Source: Verrucomicrobiales bacterium (lineage in GTDB: Bacteria; Verrucomicrobiota; Verrucomicrobiia; Verrucomicrobiales; DEV007). From it: a DNA stretch of 64,000 bases. The notes beneath the pieces were generated by a model. That model ran no database searches. It was not told the DNA's origin and saw only the letters and a list, made by a program, of their open reading frames with translations. Positions 17,111-27,013 of the stretch are shown in pieces. Location: positions 1 to 64,000 of the forward strand of contig JARGNI010000013.1 of NCBI GenBank assembly GCA_029213195.1, given 5' to 3'. Made by a program: the position numbers and the translations under genes. Position 1 is the stretch's first letter; every line of letters begins with the position of its first letter.

Positions 17111-20100
17111 ATGAAGAAGATCCCCCAGAACCTTGCTTTCCTTTTCGTCGCGATTCAGTTGTGCTCCTGCGCTATCCTGTTCGGCGAAGACAAACCCAAC
17201 ATTCTATTCATCGCGATCGATGATCTGAACGACTACATCTCGCCGCTCGACAATCATCCGGGGATTCAGACCCCGAACTTCGAGCGTCTTGCGAAGCGGT
17301 CCGTGACCCTGGCAAACGCCCACTGTGCCGCTCCCGCCTGCCATCCCTCTCGGGTCGCGGTGATGACGGGAGTGCATCCCACAACGTCCGGCATCTACCG
17401 CAACGCCTTTCGTGCGCACGGCCCGCGGTGGCGGGATGAGTCCCCGGTTCTCAAGGACGCCGTTGTCCTGTCTCAACATTTTCGCGATCACGGCTACCGT
17501 GCCGTCGGAGGCGGAAAGATCTTCCACACGCTGCAGTGGACTCCAGAAGACTCGCAAAACGACCCGGACGCGTGGGACGACTATCGCGGCGACCCACTCG
17601 ATCCGATTTCAGCCGACTGGCCACGCCCAGAACTTCCGGCAACTCAGGAACCCGGGCGCCCCCTCAGCAAGCACCATTTCGGTGCCGCTCCGCTCGACCC
17701 CGGGCATCGATACGGCGACGAACTCGTGACCGACTGGGCCATCGAGCAGATGAAAGGTGCCGGAGACGAACCTCTCTTTCTCGCCGTCGGACTTTTCCGC
17801 CCCCACATTCCCTTCGAGGTGCCGCAAAAATGGTTCGATCTCTACCCCGAGGATTCAGTCCAACTGCCGCCCTATCGAGCCGACGACCTCGACGACGCTC
17901 ACGAACACGAGCGTGTCTCCTGGCACCAATGGGTCACCGAGAACGACGAATGGAAGTCTCTCATGCGCGGCTATCTCGCCAGCATCAGCTACGTCGACAA
18001 CGAACTGGGACGTCTCCTCGATGCACTTGATGCCTCGCCAATGGCAGGAAACACCATCGTCGTTCTCTGGACCGATCACGGCTTTCATATCGGGGAAAAA
18101 GACAACTGGGAGAAGTTTGCGCTGTGGGACCAGACCACTCGCGTCCCCTGTTTCATTCATGCACCCAGTGTGAGCGCAGACGGAAAGAAAACGCGCACCC
18201 CCGTCAGCCTGGTTGATCTCTACCCGACTCTCTGTGAACTCGCGGGATTGCCGGTGCCGGGACAGTGCGATGGATCTTCCCTCGTTCCCATCCTCAAGAA
18301 TCCCGAAGCCACTCCCGAACGCTACGCGATTTCCTCCTACCAGTTCCGAGGCGAGAATACCGCCTCCCATGCAGTCATCGATGAGCGATATCGTCTCATC
18401 CGAAACGGCGATGGCTTCGAAGAACTCTACGATCTCGTCGAAGACCCGAACGAATTCACCAACCGGATCGATGACCCCGAGCTCGATGAGGTAAGAAAAC
18501 GACTCACCTCGCATCTTCCTGATTCCCCTGCCGATCAGGTCGGTCCGGCCCGGGACTCTCCCTATAACCTAAAAGCCGCTTCAATCGGCAAAAGCCAGCC
18601 TATCGCAGACACCCCGTTTCGAGTGAGTTTTCAGGCCTCCGGATACCGGAACCATCCCGAGGGCGTCCTCGTCGCTAATGGAGGCGGCGTCAATGGATAC
18701 GCGGTTTACATCAAAGACCAGCGACTTCACTTCGCGGTGCGCAGGGGCGGGAAACTTCATCTCGCCAGCTCCGAATCCTCTCCTCCGAAACGTCCGTTCT
18801 CCGTGTCTGCCGAACTGGCAAAGGATGGAACCATGAGCCTTTCGATCGACAACGAGGAAGTCGCCAGTGCGAGCGCGAAAGGATTGATCAAGGCGAACCC
18901 CAACGAAGGATTTGTCATCGGTTCCGATCCGGAATCACAGGTCGGCGACTACGGGAATGCCTTTCCTTTTGGCGGGAAGGTCGAGAATTTCAACCTTGAT
19001 CGTGGCGAAAAGATCGGACAAGAACCAACGGCTGCCGCTGACAACGACATGGGACCAATCCGCGTCCTCTTTCTCGGCCACGAGGGCGGTGGCCCGGGAC
19101 AGGCCTCGCATCAGCCGGGCAAGATGTATCCCCACCTTGCCGAGGCGCTCGGAGGAGACGCGATCTACTTCGACTATGTCGAGACGCCGGAAGAGGCCTT
19201 CGGAGATCGCGAGAAATTGTTCCGATACGATGCCGTCCTCATCTACGCAAACCACCGGACGCTCGATCGCAAGCTCTGGAACAACCTGAAAGACTTCGTG
19301 GAGCAGGGTGGCGGCTTCGTCCCGATCCACTGCGCGAGCTGGTGCTTTCAAAACATTCTCGAATACGACCGACTCGTCGGAGGCCGATTCAAGAGTCATG
19401 GAACGGGTGTCTTCTCGCCGAAGACCATTGCTCCCGAGCATCCCGCCATTGCAGAGGTTCCTCAGCTCGAAGCCTGGGACGAAACCTACTATCACAACAA
19501 CCACAATGAAACCGATCGCGTCGTCCTCCAGGTACGTGAAGGACCGGACGGAGATCCGAATCCCGGCCCCGAGCCTTGGACCTGGGTGCGCTCGCAGGGT
19601 AAAGGTCGCGTTTTCTACACCGCGAGTGGCCATGACGAACGAGTCTGGTCGAAGCCTGAGTTTCATGCCCTGCTGAAATCCGGCATCCTCTGGAGCATCG
19701 GTAAGGAACGCCGCGCCGCACACGATCAATTTCTCAGCCAACGCACCCCGCTTCGCTACGAACCAAGGGACAACATTGCCAACTATGAAAAACGGCCGAA
19801 GCCGCTCGAGTATCAGTTCCCCCTCTCCCCCGAAGACAGCCTCGACTACCTCCGCGCTCCGGTGGGATGGTCGGTCGAGCTCTTCGCTGCCGAGCCCCTG
19901 ATCGTGAATCCGATTTTCCTCGCCTGGGACGAACGGGGCCGTCTCTGGGTCGCCGAGACCGTGGACTACCCGAACGAAGTGCGTCCCGAGGGCGGCAACG
20001 ACACCATCAAGATCCTCGAGGACACCGATAACGACGGGCGGGCCGACAAGGTCACGGTGTTCGCCGACGGCTTGAACATCCCCACTTCCCTCACCTTCTG

Positions 20101-22285
20101 GGACGGAGGCATCATCGTCGCGCAGGCGCCGGACTTCCTTTTCCTCAAGGACACCAACGGAGATGACCGGGCCGACGTTCGCGAGACGGTCATGACAGGC
20201 TGGGGCACGAAAGACACCCACGCAGGCCCTTCCAACCTGCGCTACGGCATCGACAACTGGGTCTACGGAACGGTTGGCTACTCGGGTTTCAATGGCGAGA
20301 TTGGAGGAAAGAAACTCCAGTTCGGCTCCGGGGTCTTCCGCTTTCGCCCCGGCGGATCGGAAATGGAGTTTCTCCACCAGTTCAACAACAACACCTGGGG
20401 ACTCGGGCTCAACGCAGCCGGAGACGTCTTCGGATCGACCGCGAATCGAAATCCTGCCTTCTTCGGTGGCTTTCCCCAAACTGGATATCCCGAAGGGGAA
20501 AGCGGAACCAGTGCGCGGATGATCGCGGACGAGATCGCCTTTCATCCCATCACCCCGAACATCCGGCAAGTCGACGCCTTCGGGCAGTATACCGCCGGGG
20601 CAGGTTACGCCCTCGCCACCTCGAAACAGTTTCCGCCAGCTTGGCGAGATCGGATCGCCTTCATCGGGGGACCGACAGGGCATCTCCTCGGGATGTTCGA
20701 GAACGTCCGCGACGGAGCCGGCTACCGCGCCATCAACCGATTCCACTTCCTCGCCAGCGCCGACGAGTGGTTCTCTCCGGTCGCAGCCGAGGTGGGACCT
20801 GACGGCCATCTTTGGATCGCGGACTGGTACAATTTCATCATCCAGCACAACCCCACTCCCACTCCGGAACGCGGTGGCTATGCAGCTGTGCGGGGGCCTG
20901 GCAATGCCCACGAGAACCCTCTCCGCGATACCCAGCATGGACGAATCTATCGGGCGATGTGGGAGGAAGCCGAAGTGACCTCGATTTCTTCTCTCGAGAA
21001 TGCTCCGGACCAGAAACTGCTCGCGGCACTCTCTCATGACAACCAATTCTGGCGGCTCACCGCCCAGCGCATTCTCGTGGCTGGAAAACGTACCGGTGTC
21101 GTGCCCGAGCTGAAAACCCGCATTGCCGAAACAAACGGCGCCGTTGCCGCTCACGCCTTCTGGACCCTCCACGGGCTCGGTGCTCTCGATCGCGACACTC
21201 ACCAACTTGCGCTGCTCAAACCAGGCGACCCGATCCTGAAACGAAACGCGATCCGTGCGATCCCCGCCACCGATGAAGGGATGCAGCTGTTTTTCGACAC
21301 CGCCGTGATCCAGGATGAGGACTCCCTCGTTCGCCTCACCGCTTTCTCGAAACTGGCCCACTTCCCCGATCGTAGCCGGGTCGAGCAGGTCGCGAAGCAG
21401 CTGATCCGTGAAGAGGAGAACCACTCCGACGAGTGGCTATCCATCGCGCTTCGCGCGAGCGGTGCCGGAAAAGTGACGCGGGGTCCCGCGAAGATCACTG
21501 GGCCCAATCTGCTTCCCAATCCCTCCTTCGAAGAAGTGATCGACGGGCTTCCCGCACACTGGACCGTCCGCACCTACAGCGGCGAGGCCGAGCATACCTC
21601 TGCCACCGCCCAGCCCCGCACCGGGGAACGCAGCCTGCGAATTTCCTCAACCAAAGGCGCCGATAGCTCGCTCTTCGCGAAGGTCCCGGTAAAGCCAAAC
21701 ACCGACTACCGCATCACAGGTTGGGTCAAGACGGCCGGTCTGCTCGGCGCTCGGGGCGCGCAGATGAATGCGCACGAGGTGCAGCAACAGCCGCGAGGCT
21801 CACGCACCAATGCCTTTCAGCGAGCCACCCGGGATTGGAGCAAGGTGGAGGTCATTTTCAATTCCCTCGATCGCACCGAGCTCACCATCAACTGCCTCTT
21901 TGGAGGCTGGGGAAAGTCGACCGGCACCGCCTGGTGGGACGATGTCGCCCTCCACGAGGTCGAGTATGAAACCGTGGTCGAGGACGAACCGGAACTGACC
22001 AAGGGAGACGCGGGACGCGGGAAAAAACTTTTCGAGACACACCCCATCGCCGCGTGCAACCGCTGTCATGTCGTCGGTGGCGAAGGTGGGCCGATCGGCC
22101 CCGCCCTCGATGGCATCGCGAGTCGCAAGAGCGAAGAGTATCTTCTCGAGAGCCTGACCGATCCCCAGGCATCCATGGCCGAAGGCTTTCCCGCCGAAGT
22201 CTCTCCGATGCCACCTATGGGCGTGCTCCTGACCGAGCAGGAGATGCGCGATGTCATGGCCTACTTACTGACGCTGCGTGAATGA
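17111..22285 (+). CDS. Sulfatase-ThuA-PVC dehydrogenase-CBM-cytochrome c fusion protein
   Basis: 1724 residues in one uninterrupted frame, exported (signal MKKIPQNLAFLFVAIQLCSCA; the LCSC could be a weak lipobox). Approximate order: an iduronate-2-sulfatase-like domain (28-467) with the formylglycine motif CHPSR (Cys77) and metal-binding DD; a LamG/sandwich-like region (485-640); a ThuA-like domain (648-861); a PVC-type membrane-bound dehydrogenase propeller (902-1290); HEAT-like helices (1310-1460); a CBM4/9-like sandwich starting NLLPNPSFEE (about 1466-1620); and a cytochrome c domain with CNRCH (Cys1649, Cys1652, His1653). Each part is common in PVC genomes, but I know of no protein joining all of them. 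It implies desulfation coupled in cis to substrate oxidation and heme electron transfer (inference). The sulfatase maturation enzyme is not nearby. Confidence 0.9.
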   Translation: MKKIPQNLAFLFVAIQLCSCAILFGEDKPNILFIAIDDLNDYISPLDNHPGIQTPNFERLAKRSVTLANAHCAAPACHPSRVAVMTGVHPTTSGIYRNAFRAHGPRWRDESPVLKDAVVLSQHFRDHGYRAVGGGKIFHTLQWTPEDSQNDPDAWDDYRGDPLDPISADWPRPELPATQEPGRPLSKHHFGAAPLDPGHRYGDELVTDWAIEQMKGAGDEPLFLAVGLFRPHIPFEVPQKWFDLYPEDSVQLPPYRADDLDDAHEHERVSWHQWVTENDEWKSLMRGYLASISYVDNELGRLLDALDASPMAGNTIVVLWTDHGFHIGEKDNWEKFALWDQTTRVPCFIHAPSVSADGKKTRTPVSLVDLYPTLCELAGLPVPGQCDGSSLVPILKNPEATPERYAISSYQFRGENTASHAVIDERYRLIRNGDGFEELYDLVEDPNEFTNRIDDPELDEVRKRLTSHLPDSPADQVGPARDSPYNLKAASIGKSQPIADTPFRVSFQASGYRNHPEGVLVANGGGVNGYAVYIKDQRLHFAVRRGGKLHLASSESSPPKRPFSVSAELAKDGTMSLSIDNEEVASASAKGLIKANPNEGFVIGSDPESQVGDYGNAFPFGGKVENFNLDRGEKIGQEPTAAADNDMGPIRVLFLGHEGGGPGQASHQPGKMYPHLAEALGGDAIYFDYVETPEEAFGDREKLFRYDAVLIYANHRTLDRKLWNNLKDFVEQGGGFVPIHCASWCFQNILEYDRLVGGRFKSHGTGVFSPKTIAPEHPAIAEVPQLEAWDETYYHNNHNETDRVVLQVREGPDGDPNPGPEPWTWVRSQGKGRVFYTASGHDERVWSKPEFHALLKSGILWSIGKERRAAHDQFLSQRTPLRYEPRDNIANYEKRPKPLEYQFPLSPEDSLDYLRAPVGWSVELFAAEPLIVNPIFLAWDERGRLWVAETVDYPNEVRPEGGNDTIKILEDTDNDGRADKVTVFADGLNIPTSLTFWDGGIIVAQAPDFLFLKDTNGDDRADVRETVMTGWGTKDTHAGPSNLRYGIDNWVYGTVGYSGFNGEIGGKKLQFGSGVFRFRPGGSEMEFLHQFNNNTWGLGLNAAGDVFGSTANRNPAFFGGFPQTGYPEGESGTSARMIADEIAFHPITPNIRQVDAFGQYTAGAGYALATSKQFPPAWRDRIAFIGGPTGHLLGMFENVRDGAGYRAINRFHFLASADEWFSPVAAEVGPDGHLWIADWYNFIIQHNPTPTPERGGYAAVRGPGNAHENPLRDTQHGRIYRAMWEEAEVTSISSLENAPDQKLLAALSHDNQFWRLTAQRILVAGKRTGVVPELKTRIAETNGAVAAHAFWTLHGLGALDRDTHQLALLKPGDPILKRNAIRAIPATDEGMQLFFDTAVIQDEDSLVRLTAFSKLAHFPDRSRVEQVAKQLIREEENHSDEWLSIALRASGAGKVTRGPAKITGPNLLPNPSFEEVIDGLPAHWTVRTYSGEAEHTSATAQPRTGERSLRISSTKGADSSLFAKVPVKPNTDYRITGWVKTAGLLGARGAQMNAHEVQQQPRGSRTNAFQRATRDWSKVEVIFNSLDRTELTINCLFGGWGKSTGTAWWDDVALHEVEYETVVEDEPELTKGDAGRGKKLFETHPIAACNRCHVVGGEGGPIGPALDGIASRKSEEYLLESLTDPQASMAEGFPAEVSPMPPMGVLLTEQEMRDVMAYLLTLRE

Positions 22286-22428
22286 CGAAATACCCAGGGA
22301 CCCAGATACCCAACTTTTAAATCTTCAACCTCCCGAACCATCATGAAACCAAGAAACAGCCCCCGCCTTTTCGGATTCCGTATTTCGATCTTCCTTGGGT
22401 ATTTGAGTATTTCGTCCTTCGTCATTCC
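22280..22428. repeat. GACGAA-type intergenic repeat in two inverted copies, overlapping the next gene's signal peptide
   Basis: GAATGACGAA (22280-22289) has its reverse complement at 22418-22427, and AAATACCCA (22288-22296) has its reverse complement within 22395-22404. Read on the minus strand, 22381-22428 is a run of short degenerate GACGAA/GAAATAC units of the kind often seen between genes of Verrucomicrobiota and Planctomycetes. The left copy contains the stop codon of the fusion gene; the right copy lies inside the coding sequence of the next gene and encodes its hydrophobic signal segment. Confidence 0.55.
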
Positions 22429-25400
22429 CGCCTTGGCGGAAACCGCCTGGAACACCCAACTCATTCTTCCTGACTTCTACGCTGAGGGCGCCGGAGTCGG
22501 AGACATCAATGGAGACGGCAACCCCGACATCGCCTACGGCCCCTTCTGGTTTGCCGGTCCCGATTTCCAAACGAAAACCCGCTTCGCCGACGGAGAAGCC
22601 TTCGACGGCGGCACCGGATACTCGGACAGTTTTTTCAGCTTTGTCAGGGACTTCAATGGGGATGGAAAGAGTGATATTCTCGTCTTTGGTTTTCCCGGCA
22701 AATCGGCCCGCCTCTACCTGAACTCCAATGCGGAGCGCTGGGAAATGATCGAAGTCGCCGAACAGGTCGCCAACGAATCGCCTCACCTCATCGATCTCAT
22801 CCCCGGAGGACATCCCGAGATCGTCTGCGCTCGAGAGAAAGCCTACGGCTACTACGAAGCGAGTGAGGACGCGACGAAGCCATGGACATGGCACTCGATC
22901 TCCCCCACCGGGGAAGCCGCCACTCCGTTCGGACACAGTCTTGGTGTCGGTGACATCAATGGGGACGGGCGGGCCGATGTCATCGAGAAGATGCATTGGT
23001 ATGAGCAGCCTGAAAAAGCAGGCACTGGAGAATGGAAGAAGCACAAGTGGGCAATGATTCCCTACGGCGGAGGCGGTGCCCAGATCCTCATCGACGATGT
23101 CGATGGAGATGGCGACAACGACATCATCACTTCGCTCAATGCACATGCCTACGGCATCGCCTGGTTCGAGCAACACGCCCCCGGAAAGTTCGGGCGCCAA
23201 GACATCGTCGGTCAGAGCTCAACTGAGAATCCCTACGGAGTCGCGTTCTCTCAACCCCATGCCCTCGCTCTCGCTGACATGGACGGAGACGGCCGCAAGG
23301 ACTTCGTCACTGGGAAACGTTACTTTGCCCACAAAGGCCGCGATCCCGGCGGCTTACAGGAGCCAGTGCTCTACTGGTTTCGCAACACCGAGACGGAAAA
23401 CGGAATCGACTGGGTCCCCCATCTCGTCGACGACGATTCCGGGGTCGGCGTAGAAGTAAAGGTGACGGATCTCAATGGAGACGAGAAACCTGATGTAATT
23501 ACCAGCAGCAAGAAAGGGCTTATCATCCACACCCAGGTCGCGAGTGGTTCTCACTCGGCCGTCCCAAAGTGGAAACACGGTGAACATCTTCCGCAGGATC
23601 AGTATGGGGTCGACCTTACCGCCGAGGAGGCGAGGGATGAGACCATGGTACCGGAAGGCTTCTCGGTAGACCTTATCACGGCGGAGCCCGACCTGGTCCA
23701 GCCCATCGCGATGACCTTCGACGCTCGCGGTCGCATCTGGGTGATCGAGGGCAACACTTATCCAGTCCGCAAGGAAGGCGGCTTCCACGACGGCAAGGAT
23801 CGCATTCTCATCTTCGAAGACAGTGATGCGGACGGATCCTTCGAAACTCGAAAAGTCTTCGCTGAGAATATCAATCTCGCCAGCGGCATCGAAATTGGAT
23901 TCGGAGGCGTCTATGTCGGCGCCGCCCCTTACCTTCTCTTCTATCCTGACAAAGACCAAAATGACCAACCCGACGGTGAGCCTGAGATCCTACTCGACGG
24001 GTGGGGCTACCAGGACACTCACGAGACTCTGAACGCCTTCACCTGGGGACCGGACGGGTGGCTCTATGGTTGCCACGGCGTTTTCACCCACTCAAAAGTG
24101 GGCAAGCCGGGCACACCTGACGAGGTGCGTCAGCCGATCAATGCGGGTCTGTGGCGTTTTCACCCGGTCTCAAAGGAGTTCCAAGTCTACGCCCATGGTT
24201 CGAGCAATCCATGGGGTGTCGACTTCAATGAACACGGGGACTTTTTCGTCAGTGCGTGCGTCATCCCGCACTTCTATCACCTCAGTCACGGAGGCCGTTA
24301 TCAACGACAGGCTGGCCAGCACTTCGACCCGTTCACGTTCGACGACATCAAGACGATCGCCGACCACGCCCACTACACCGGAGCCTGGCAGGAAGTTCGA
24401 AAAAACGGTTATCGGGCTCCCGAGGACACTTCCGCTCTTGGCGGCGGACACGCCCACTGCGGCCTGGTCTACTACGACGCCCCGGAGTTTCCGAAAGAGT
24501 TTCGTCGGCAGATGTATTTTCACAACCTGCACGGACATCGCATCGTCCGGGAGGATCTCGGTCATGATGGCTCTGGCTACCTCGCGCGACATCGGCCCGA
24601 CTTCCTCCTCAGCAATCACCACGATACCGTGGGTGTGGGAGTGATGCAGGGGCCGGACGGAGCCCTCTATTATTCCGACTGGGTCGACAGCCAGACCTGC
24701 CACCATCGCGATGTTGAGATCTGGGATCGCAGCAATGGCCGAATTTTTCGGGTCCGCTACGGCGATGCCAAGAGCACGGCTCTCGATCTACCCGACCTTG
24801 GCGACACCAAACTTGTCGCATTGCTTGGTCACGAAAACACTTTCCAGGCACGCCAGGCTCAACGGCTTCTCCAGGAGCGTGCTGCGACGGGATCCCTCGA
24901 CAGAGATGCCGTCAGCGCGGCCCTGACTCAATTTGAATCGGATCACTCTGAAGTCGCCCCTCTCCGTCTCCGGGCCCTCTGGACCCGCCATGTCACCGGG
25001 ATATTGAATGGCAAGCAGGTCATGGCCGCTCTCTCCGACCCGAATGAACACATCCGTGGCTGGGCTATTCAGATTGCAATCGCGAACGAAGGCACGATGC
25101 CAAGATTCATCGAGATGGCGAGGTCCGAAGAGTCGCTCGTGGTCCGACGCTACCTCGCATCAAAGCTTCAGACCCTGCCACTCCCACAACGATTGGAGAT
25201 TGCCCGTGGCCTCATCGGGCACAATCGCAGTCAGTGGGATCGCAATATCCCTTACCTCGTTTGGTATGGAATAGCCCCTCTCGTGGAATCGAACCCGAAA
25301 GAGGCTCTGACCCTCATCAACCAGACGGCATGGCCGATGCTCAAGGATTTCATCAATCGGCGGGCCGCGGTTTTCCCAGAAGGCCGAACTGCCGTCACCT

Positions 25401-27013
25401 TCTCACTATCCAATGCTGGCAATCCGAAACAGTTTGTCGACCAAGCGAACCAACTACTGACCGCACTGGCCAGCCTGCCTCCGGTAGAGACACCCGAAAC
25501 CTGGGAAAATGCGAAAGCCAAAGGAATCTCGTTTGGTAAAAACCCGCAAGTGGCGGATGTCCTCAGCCGTCTCGGAACTCGCTTCCGCGATGCGGAATAC
25601 TTTCCGAAATGGCGCAAGATCGCTCGGAATGGAAACGCAAAGGCGTCCGACCGGGTCAATGCAATGGAGTTGCTTACGATCGGACGCGATCCTGAACTTG
25701 GAGTGATCGCCCGCGAGCTGCTCTCCGTTCCTTCCCTCCAAACCGCCGCAATCACCGCGCTACGCCGGGATCCGGGAACAGAAACGGCGAAAGCACTGGT
25801 AGCGGTCCTCCCGGAGCTTTCCCTCAAACAGCGAAATGAAGCGATCAACCTCCTCGGGACGAGGCCGGAAATGGCTCTGGTTCTGCTGGAAGCAGTAGAT
25901 ACCAAGAACGTGGCTTCGTCTCTCGTCTCCCCCGTCATGCTCGATCAGTTCGAGCGATTCGAAGACGAAAAAATCTCTGCGCTGATCGAGAAAAACTGGA
26001 TGCGCGGCGGTGCAGGCATCGACCTCGAACAGCTTCATGCCGCCATCCAAGGCTGGAAGAAGAAGCTCACTCCGAAGGTGCTTTCGCAGGCTGATGTGTC
26101 GAGAGGACGGCAGGCCTACATGATGACCTGCGGCACCTGCCACCAGCTCTTCGGCGAAGGCATCGCCATGGGCCCCGACCTCACAGGATCGAACCGTGCC
26201 GACCTCGGCTACCTTCTCGAGAATGTCCTCGCCCCCAACGCCGTCGTTTCGAAGGAATACCTGCTCAACATCTTCACGATGAAAGACGGATCGACCTTGA
26301 GTGGCATGATCAGCAACGAGACGCCCGAATTCGTTTCTCTTTCCATGCCCGGAGGCACCACCACGGATGTAAAGAAAACCGAGATAAAAAGCCGGCAGGA
26401 ATTGACCCAGAGCCTTATGCCCGCCGGTCTCTTTGACGCGCTTCCGATCGAGCAGGTTGCTGATCTCGTGAAATACCTCGCCAGCCCGAGGCAGGTCCCG
26501 ATGCCCGGTGAAAAAAAACCGGTTCAGAAGGTGAGGGCAGTAGCTCCTTCCGAGAGCGTCATCCGCATCGAGGCCGAGTCGCTCGTAGAAAAATTTTCAC
26601 CGCCCAGGGGAGAACTCCGACCGCAGAAGATGTCCGGCTTCGGCAGCGGCTGGTCCGGTGACTCCCATCTCTGGTGGACCGGAGGAAAACCCGGAGACAT
26701 TCTCACGCTGAAACTGGAAGGGATTGATCCAGGAAACTATGATCTCACTCTGTTCCCGACGACGGCAAAGGACTACGCCACGGTGAAATTCGCGATCAAT
26801 GGCCAACTGCGGGAGGCGGATTTCTACACGGCCGATGTTCTGCCTGGTGATCCAATTCCATTCGAAAGCGTCAATGTCAGTCCCAGCGAACCGCTCCAAA
26901 TCGATATCCATATCACCGGAGCAAATCCGAAAGCGCAGAAACGCTACATGATCGGGATCGATCGGATCGAGCTAAAGAAAATTGAAAAAGCACCCAAGTC
27001 CGCTGGAAAGTAA
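22343..27013 (+). CDS. FG-GAP/VCBS-PVC dehydrogenase-HEAT-cytochrome c-CBM fusion protein
   Basis: 1556 residues, exported (signal FGFRISIFLGYLSISSFVIPALAE, itself derived from a repeat). Order: FG-GAP/VCBS repeats with calcium-binding DxDxDG loops such as GDINGDGNPD and DVDGDGDND (about 45-410); a PVC-type dehydrogenase propeller starting VPEGFSVDLITAEPDL (about 433-800); HEAT-like helices (815-1230); a cytochrome c domain with CGTCH (Cys1263, Cys1266, His1267) in the Haem_bd-PVC arrangement ending MPAGLFDALPIEQVADLVKY; and a C-terminal carbohydrate-binding-like sandwich (about 1395-1545). Probably a periplasmic or surface sugar-oxidising enzyme passing electrons to its own heme. It is 57 bases after the sulfatase fusion and 28 bases before another sulfatase, so likely one transcript. 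Confidence 0.9.
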   Translation: MKPRNSPRLFGFRISIFLGYLSISSFVIPALAETAWNTQLILPDFYAEGAGVGDINGDGNPDIAYGPFWFAGPDFQTKTRFADGEAFDGGTGYSDSFFSFVRDFNGDGKSDILVFGFPGKSARLYLNSNAERWEMIEVAEQVANESPHLIDLIPGGHPEIVCAREKAYGYYEASEDATKPWTWHSISPTGEAATPFGHSLGVGDINGDGRADVIEKMHWYEQPEKAGTGEWKKHKWAMIPYGGGGAQILIDDVDGDGDNDIITSLNAHAYGIAWFEQHAPGKFGRQDIVGQSSTENPYGVAFSQPHALALADMDGDGRKDFVTGKRYFAHKGRDPGGLQEPVLYWFRNTETENGIDWVPHLVDDDSGVGVEVKVTDLNGDEKPDVITSSKKGLIIHTQVASGSHSAVPKWKHGEHLPQDQYGVDLTAEEARDETMVPEGFSVDLITAEPDLVQPIAMTFDARGRIWVIEGNTYPVRKEGGFHDGKDRILIFEDSDADGSFETRKVFAENINLASGIEIGFGGVYVGAAPYLLFYPDKDQNDQPDGEPEILLDGWGYQDTHETLNAFTWGPDGWLYGCHGVFTHSKVGKPGTPDEVRQPINAGLWRFHPVSKEFQVYAHGSSNPWGVDFNEHGDFFVSACVIPHFYHLSHGGRYQRQAGQHFDPFTFDDIKTIADHAHYTGAWQEVRKNGYRAPEDTSALGGGHAHCGLVYYDAPEFPKEFRRQMYFHNLHGHRIVREDLGHDGSGYLARHRPDFLLSNHHDTVGVGVMQGPDGALYYSDWVDSQTCHHRDVEIWDRSNGRIFRVRYGDAKSTALDLPDLGDTKLVALLGHENTFQARQAQRLLQERAATGSLDRDAVSAALTQFESDHSEVAPLRLRALWTRHVTGILNGKQVMAALSDPNEHIRGWAIQIAIANEGTMPRFIEMARSEESLVVRRYLASKLQTLPLPQRLEIARGLIGHNRSQWDRNIPYLVWYGIAPLVESNPKEALTLINQTAWPMLKDFINRRAAVFPEGRTAVTFSLSNAGNPKQFVDQANQLLTALASLPPVETPETWENAKAKGISFGKNPQVADVLSRLGTRFRDAEYFPKWRKIARNGNAKASDRVNAMELLTIGRDPELGVIARELLSVPSLQTAAITALRRDPGTETAKALVAVLPELSLKQRNEAINLLGTRPEMALVLLEAVDTKNVASSLVSPVMLDQFERFEDEKISALIEKNWMRGGAGIDLEQLHAAIQGWKKKLTPKVLSQADVSRGRQAYMMTCGTCHQLFGEGIAMGPDLTGSNRADLGYLLENVLAPNAVVSKEYLLNIFTMKDGSTLSGMISNETPEFVSLSMPGGTTTDVKKTEIKSRQELTQSLMPAGLFDALPIEQVADLVKYLASPRQVPMPGEKKPVQKVRAVAPSESVIRIEAESLVEKFSPPRGELRPQKMSGFGSGWSGDSHLWWTGGKPGDILTLKLEGIDPGNYDLTLFPTTAKDYATVKFAINGQLREADFYTADVLPGDPIPFESVNVSPSEPLQIDIHITGANPKAQKRYMIGIDRIELKKIEKAPKSAGK

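Follow-up and report, generated by a model that had tools for sequence, protein, structure and literature searches.

How might a palindromic repeat that lies across the junction of two genes come to encode part of the export signal of the second one? This question is raised by a 64-kb stretch of a Verrucomicrobiales bacterium genome (GCA_029213195.1, contig JARGNI010000013.1, positions 1 to 64,000; hereafter the window, and its genome G000), in which a 148-bp element ends one gene and enters the next. In the present study, we consider it likely that this element is the short form, lacking an open reading frame (ORF), of an S23-associated repeat family of the Planctomycetes-Verrucomicrobia-Chlamydiae (PVC) group, that it inserted at the stop codon of the upstream gene, and that its right arm replaced the hydrophobic part of the signal peptide encoded by the downstream gene. 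The features concerned are listed below.

17111-22285, plus strand: upstream gene, large, in which sulfatase, ThuA, DUF7133 and cytochrome c domains are fused, with its stop codon within the left arm
22280-22427, no strand assigned: palindromic element of 148 bp, a form without S23 resembling a miniature inverted-repeat transposable element (MITE), spanning the junction of the two genes
22280-22309, plus strand: left arm, GAATGACGAAATACCCAGGGACCCAGATAC, in which GAATGA (22280-22285) provides the upstream gene with its last codon and stop
22370-22427, minus strand: right arm, an inverted copy reading GAATGACGAAGGACGAAATACTCAAATACCCAAGGAAGATCG on the minus strand, the plus strand of which encodes residues 10-28, FGFRISIFLGYLSISSFVI
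22343-27013, plus strand: downstream gene, FG-GAP repeats, DUF7133 and cytochrome c, 1556 aa, with a repeat-derived signal peptide
22343-22438, plus strand: predicted signal peptide of 32 aa, from hydrophobicity, charge and AXA motif

A first-pass annotation made from the sequence alone had placed the left copy of the repeat over the upstream stop, and GAA TGA at 22280-22285 indeed ends the ORF there. The main inverted arms (22280-22304 and 22396-22420) are 25 nt long and 80% complementary, and a nested pair of 14 nt (22276-22289 and 22418-22431) is 93% complementary. The RNA of this region folds better than shuffled sequences (z = -2.5), and the repeat family was found again in the genomes of relatives, beyond the two copies of its own genome; therefore, the inverted pair is not a product of chance. 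No second copy was found in the window, and at the sensitivity used only one further copy, an intergenic palindrome (C47:2700-2836), was found in the 5.9-Mb genome, so that the repeat is a low-copy one in its own host. Looser pattern searches of this genome gave sites that were mostly chance matches inside genes, and these were set aside. Comparison with Rfam gave no significant match, and a class-wide DNA scan yielded almost no additional copies. The many copies of the family are short (most of them 82-207 bp), with terminal inverted repeats and no ORF of their own, as is typical of MITE-like elements, and their middles are variable.

The downstream ORF encodes a PVC-type secreted dehydrogenase-like protein and begins MKPRNSPRLFGFRISIFLGYLSISSFVIPALAE, and residues 10-28 (22370-22426) derive from the right arm. 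The annotation had also proposed that the inverted copy is read as a hydrophobic stretch within the first 30 codons, and these residues do supply the hydrophobic (h-) region of the predicted signal peptide. The sequence features of a Sec type I signal are present, namely a positive n-region (MKPRNSPRLFGFR, charge +4), an h-region (ISIFLGYLSISSFVI) with a Kyte-Doolittle value of 1.93, inside the range of 1.60-2.99 in the orthologues, and a c-region, PALA, with an AXA-like site. Cleavage would occur after ALA (residues 30-32, behind A32), with the mature part starting at E33, and these features suggest that the repeat-derived peptide functions in export. A start beyond residue 30, which would undo this reading, was checked. 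Upstream of 22343 the frame has no ATG, GTG or TTG as far back as the preceding stop. The following candidate in this frame, TTG at 22433, would delete the signal, so that a move downstream is possible only with loss of the signal, and there is no other plausible start.

Orthologues of the window gene are present across the family. In G024 (78% identity), G006 (72%), G028 (79-80%), G032 (68%) and other orthologues the repeat is absent, and the signal peptides are short, ordinary and unrelated to it; those at 78%, 72% and 68% belong to the same genus as the host. This result indicates that the repeat replaced an earlier export signal. Judging from this comparison, the secreted protein is not a creation of the repeat, and an existing export signal has been swapped. 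The idea that such repeats provide a route to new secreted proteins was not upheld, as all the recruited genes are of an exported type and the examined orthologues already had another signal. The C-terminus of the upstream gene, MAYLLTLRE and its stop, matches MAYLMSLKD and the stop of the G028 orthologue codon for codon, so that the left end of the element coincides exactly with a stop position, one that probably predates the element. As a separate observation, a motif like CCGAATCCGCATAAGATCCG, perhaps a promoter or operator, lies ~100 bp upstream of several orthologues (L048, L049, L052, L054) and is absent from the window.

Three further clear fusions were observed in related bacteria. In G054, a member of another genus, the orthologue of the window gene (C84) contains this arm, read in the frame used in the window, begins MNRNFRHRKTGRPRLLIRALAFLGYLGISSFVISSLRAD and carries the repeat-derived signal FLGYLGISSFVI; an S23 gene adjoins it divergently, giving a full S23 copy there as compared with the short form in the window. 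In the same genome, a DUF7133/cytochrome gene (C697) begins MTKHPDTQTPKASGSLSGPASLRGLTLGLLSILGYFGTSTFSTAQ, with its start from the left arm and its h-region from the right arm, and the left-arm ATGA overlaps the stop of an upstream gene located on the abutting contig (L131). The remaining case is a sulfatase of G039 (C266), whose sole standard starts lie within the element and are followed by FGIGYFVIRHFLPALAGLLILF. The gene tree places the window copy together with G028 and G024, whereas the copy of G054 clusters with that of G064 (the N-terminus of which is missing at a contig end), both branches being well supported. Because the tree splits the two copies, at least two separate origins are indicated in this orthologue, and, judged by the gene tree, the recruitments in the window and in G054 would be independent events. 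A second G039 sulfatase (C192) is ambiguous, with no standard start codon beside its hydrophobic stretch, and was excluded from the count; numerous long open frames that run through arms were likewise dismissed, being either antisense to real genes or frames with the real start downstream.

The same arms also flank a longer form of the element. A single S23/four-helix-bundle ORF is bounded by them within 80 bp on both sides in G027, G039, G701 and G751, that is, in all 4 complete loci, as compared with a chance rate of 0.02 hits per kb, and where loci are cut by contig ends, an arm is present on the remaining side. These elements are ~490-590 bp long, and the S23 ORF of the G027 full-length form matches PF05635 (37.6 bits, cut-off 33.8). 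The loci of the full-length type are L175 (G027 C262:8163-8846), L174 (G039 C192:18560-19062), L267 and L268, with arms GAATGACGAA...CCCAA, and the S23 unit between these arms is the apparent full-length mobile unit of the repeat family. The arm-flanked subfamily was found essentially once per genome. The full-length form thus has an S23 ORF bounded by inverted repeats, as in S23 intervening sequences (IVSs), and the short element of the window does not; the copies are located next to protein genes or between them, and not in 23S rRNA. Taken together, these comparisons suggest that the short repeat is probably the non-autonomous form of a mobile-type unit whose long form, with the S23 ORF, is present in other PVC-group genomes. 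We infer that the element moved by transposition, with S23 as the putative mobility factor. These arms are missing at two distant S23 genes. Other S23 genes, at L180, L182, L186, L190, L201, L204 and L205 (in relatives and at C11:107512 of the own genome), are flanked by different short-motif inverted repeats, e.g. TTAGCGGTTAGC and TTTTCAGTTTTCAG, which score above shuffled controls.

The census of the family comprised 120 distinct arm ends, some of them chance sites, and three of the four clear fusions came from it, while the remaining one was recognised when L212 was inspected. Each of the four fusions is an exported-type protein, as compared with ~4 genes with a signal peptide, by our reading, among the ~15 that merely face an arm; this excess is weak (hypergeometric p ~0.02). 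The proposal that an intergenic repeat serves as a ready-made export signal held in part, since a hydrophobic core was supplied here and in three other genes, but no phylum-wide enrichment of signal-peptide recruitment was found with the query peptide in 387 genomes. The peptide matched 8 of these 387 genomes, its own counted, and beyond the family of the host the copies sit in short open frames, contrary to the general enrichment that had been expected across related genomes. The stops of incoming genes cluster around the element end, 16 of 50 falling at positions -17 to +2 relative to it, although a few of the ORFs concerned are uncertain. Element ends at or within ~12 bp of such stops were seen at L131, L173, L115, L168 and L215 and at 22280-22285 of the window, and the TGA of GAATGA often serves as the stop of the incoming gene. 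Several contigs terminate in or beside elements (L133 on G054 C84, G064 C127, G651 C196, G750 C517); consequently, the assemblies probably under-count them.

Herein, we propose the following course of events. In the full-length form of the family, the same arms enclose a single S23/four-helix-bundle ORF, and the window would hold the short form without it. Elements of this family are often situated at or just after gene stop codons, and the present one would have landed on the stop of the upstream gene within a tight two-gene junction. Its far arm would then have reached into the beginning of the gene that follows, replacing the h-region of the native signal and probably the n-region too, with the PALA c-region and the mature protein retained. 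The outward strand of the arm is rich in T with almost no stops and would thus be read as a hydrophobic stretch, which could make such a replacement workable. Several results weigh against this proposal. No S23 copy of this subfamily was found in the 95%-complete assembly of G000, so that the source is either absent or missing from the assembly. The ancestral junction varies among relatives, and neither an exact empty site nor a target-site duplication was established. In addition, strongly hydrophobic outward frames occur in 23% of arms, 20% of shuffled arms and 1.4% of random window DNA; the outward hydrophobicity is thus compositional, and an arm specially built to encode hydrophobic peptides was ruled out, shuffled arms being about equally hydrophobic.

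The same comparison with shuffled arms fits the view that the insertion was merely tolerated and brought nothing to the host, a situation comparable to that of the Rickettsia palindromic elements within proteins. Constraint on signal peptides is loose, and inserted elements that keep a hydrophobic open frame would therefore survive; the proteins were exported already, and phylum-wide enrichment is absent. We regard this view as somewhat probable; it is compatible with the anatomy and origin proposed above and does not conflict with recruitment itself, although two independent recruitments in the same orthologue and frame, at nearly the same position, hint at more, from a small number of cases. 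These two recruitments might instead be a single ancestral or horizontally shared event, given that the frame is identical and the distance to the mature protein nearly equal. However, well-supported branches of the gene tree separate the two copies, about six losses would be required (in G006, G024, G028, G025, G026/G015 and G023/G016), and a full S23 copy lies beside the G054 gene as opposed to the short form in the window, and a single event is distinctly improbable.

Location at stop codons and the RNA fold (z = -2.5) would also be expected of an ordinary hairpin at the upstream 3' end, a terminator or mRNA stabiliser similar to repetitive extragenic palindromic (REP) sequences, which would overlap the downstream gene only incidentally. 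Such a hairpin leaves the flanking of S23 and the recurrent in-frame fusions to exported-type genes unexplained, and it seems unlikely as an alternative, while it may hold in addition. Finally, the repeat might be an untranslated leader with a coincidental signal-like frame if translation started at TTG 22433, which is in frame, or later, and no clear Shine-Dalgarno sequence precedes 22343. Several orthologues likewise begin at an ATG without a strong Shine-Dalgarno sequence, and a downstream start would leave an exported-type protein without a signal, which all examined orthologues with complete N-termini possess; we therefore consider this explanation very improbable.

Replacement of the signal peptide by an S23-related repeat can be compared with several known systems. 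Rickettsia palindromic elements, reportedly described by Ogata and colleagues in 2000, are palindromic repeats in frame inside protein genes, in which they resemble the present family; they differ in sequence and have no known tie to signal peptides and no known S23 partner. REP elements (surveyed in PMC3733652) are palindromes of 20-40 bp with a GTAG/CGTC foot and are associated with a RAYT gene, which encodes a Y1 transposase. Palindromes near stops, many short copies and one putative mobility gene per genome are common to both systems, whereas the arms differ, the present copies (82-207 bp) exceed the REP size, and the partner is S23 instead of a Y1 transposase. The IVS in the 23S rRNA of Coxiella burnetii is a selfish element that carries S23 and ends in inverted repeats, and a mobility role has been proposed for its ORF (PMC4990558). 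The full-length form resembles such IVSs in having an S23-family ORF within inverted repeats able to pair into a long stem; in contrast, S23 IVSs occupy helix 45 of 23S rRNA, and the present elements lie between protein genes alongside many short copies without the ORF. A precedent is RU-2, a Yersinia palindromic sequence that contributes to the signal peptide predicted for YPO1552, the signals of relatives being unrelated (Delihas 2007, PMC2759123; review PMC2229807). The window gene likewise has a repeat in frame within a predicted signal peptide and relatives with signals unrelated to it. Sequence and host group differ, RU-2 offers one main exported-protein case as compared with four here, including two orthologues, and the arm here gives mainly the h-region and in one case the start codon too. 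The fusion of a repeat to a signal peptide therefore has a precedent, and its recurrence and the link to S23 look new; no account of S23 as a mobile element enclosed by repeats, outside rRNA and between protein genes, was found in the openly accessible literature.

More broadly, we tentatively suggest, with somewhat less than even confidence, that S23/four-helix-bundle genes are mobility partners of a class of small elements bounded by heptad-type inverted repeats, the ribosomal IVSs being just one kind among these elements, and that short derivatives scattered at PVC gene ends have repeatedly been domesticated into start codons and signal peptides for exported proteins. The comparison of orthologues shows that a signal peptide can be replaced by a scattered repeat, which occurred more than once and even in one gene. 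Moreover, the S23-encoding unit with the same ends provides a testable origin for these repeats, and such an origin would open the long-standing question of S23 protein function to direct study.
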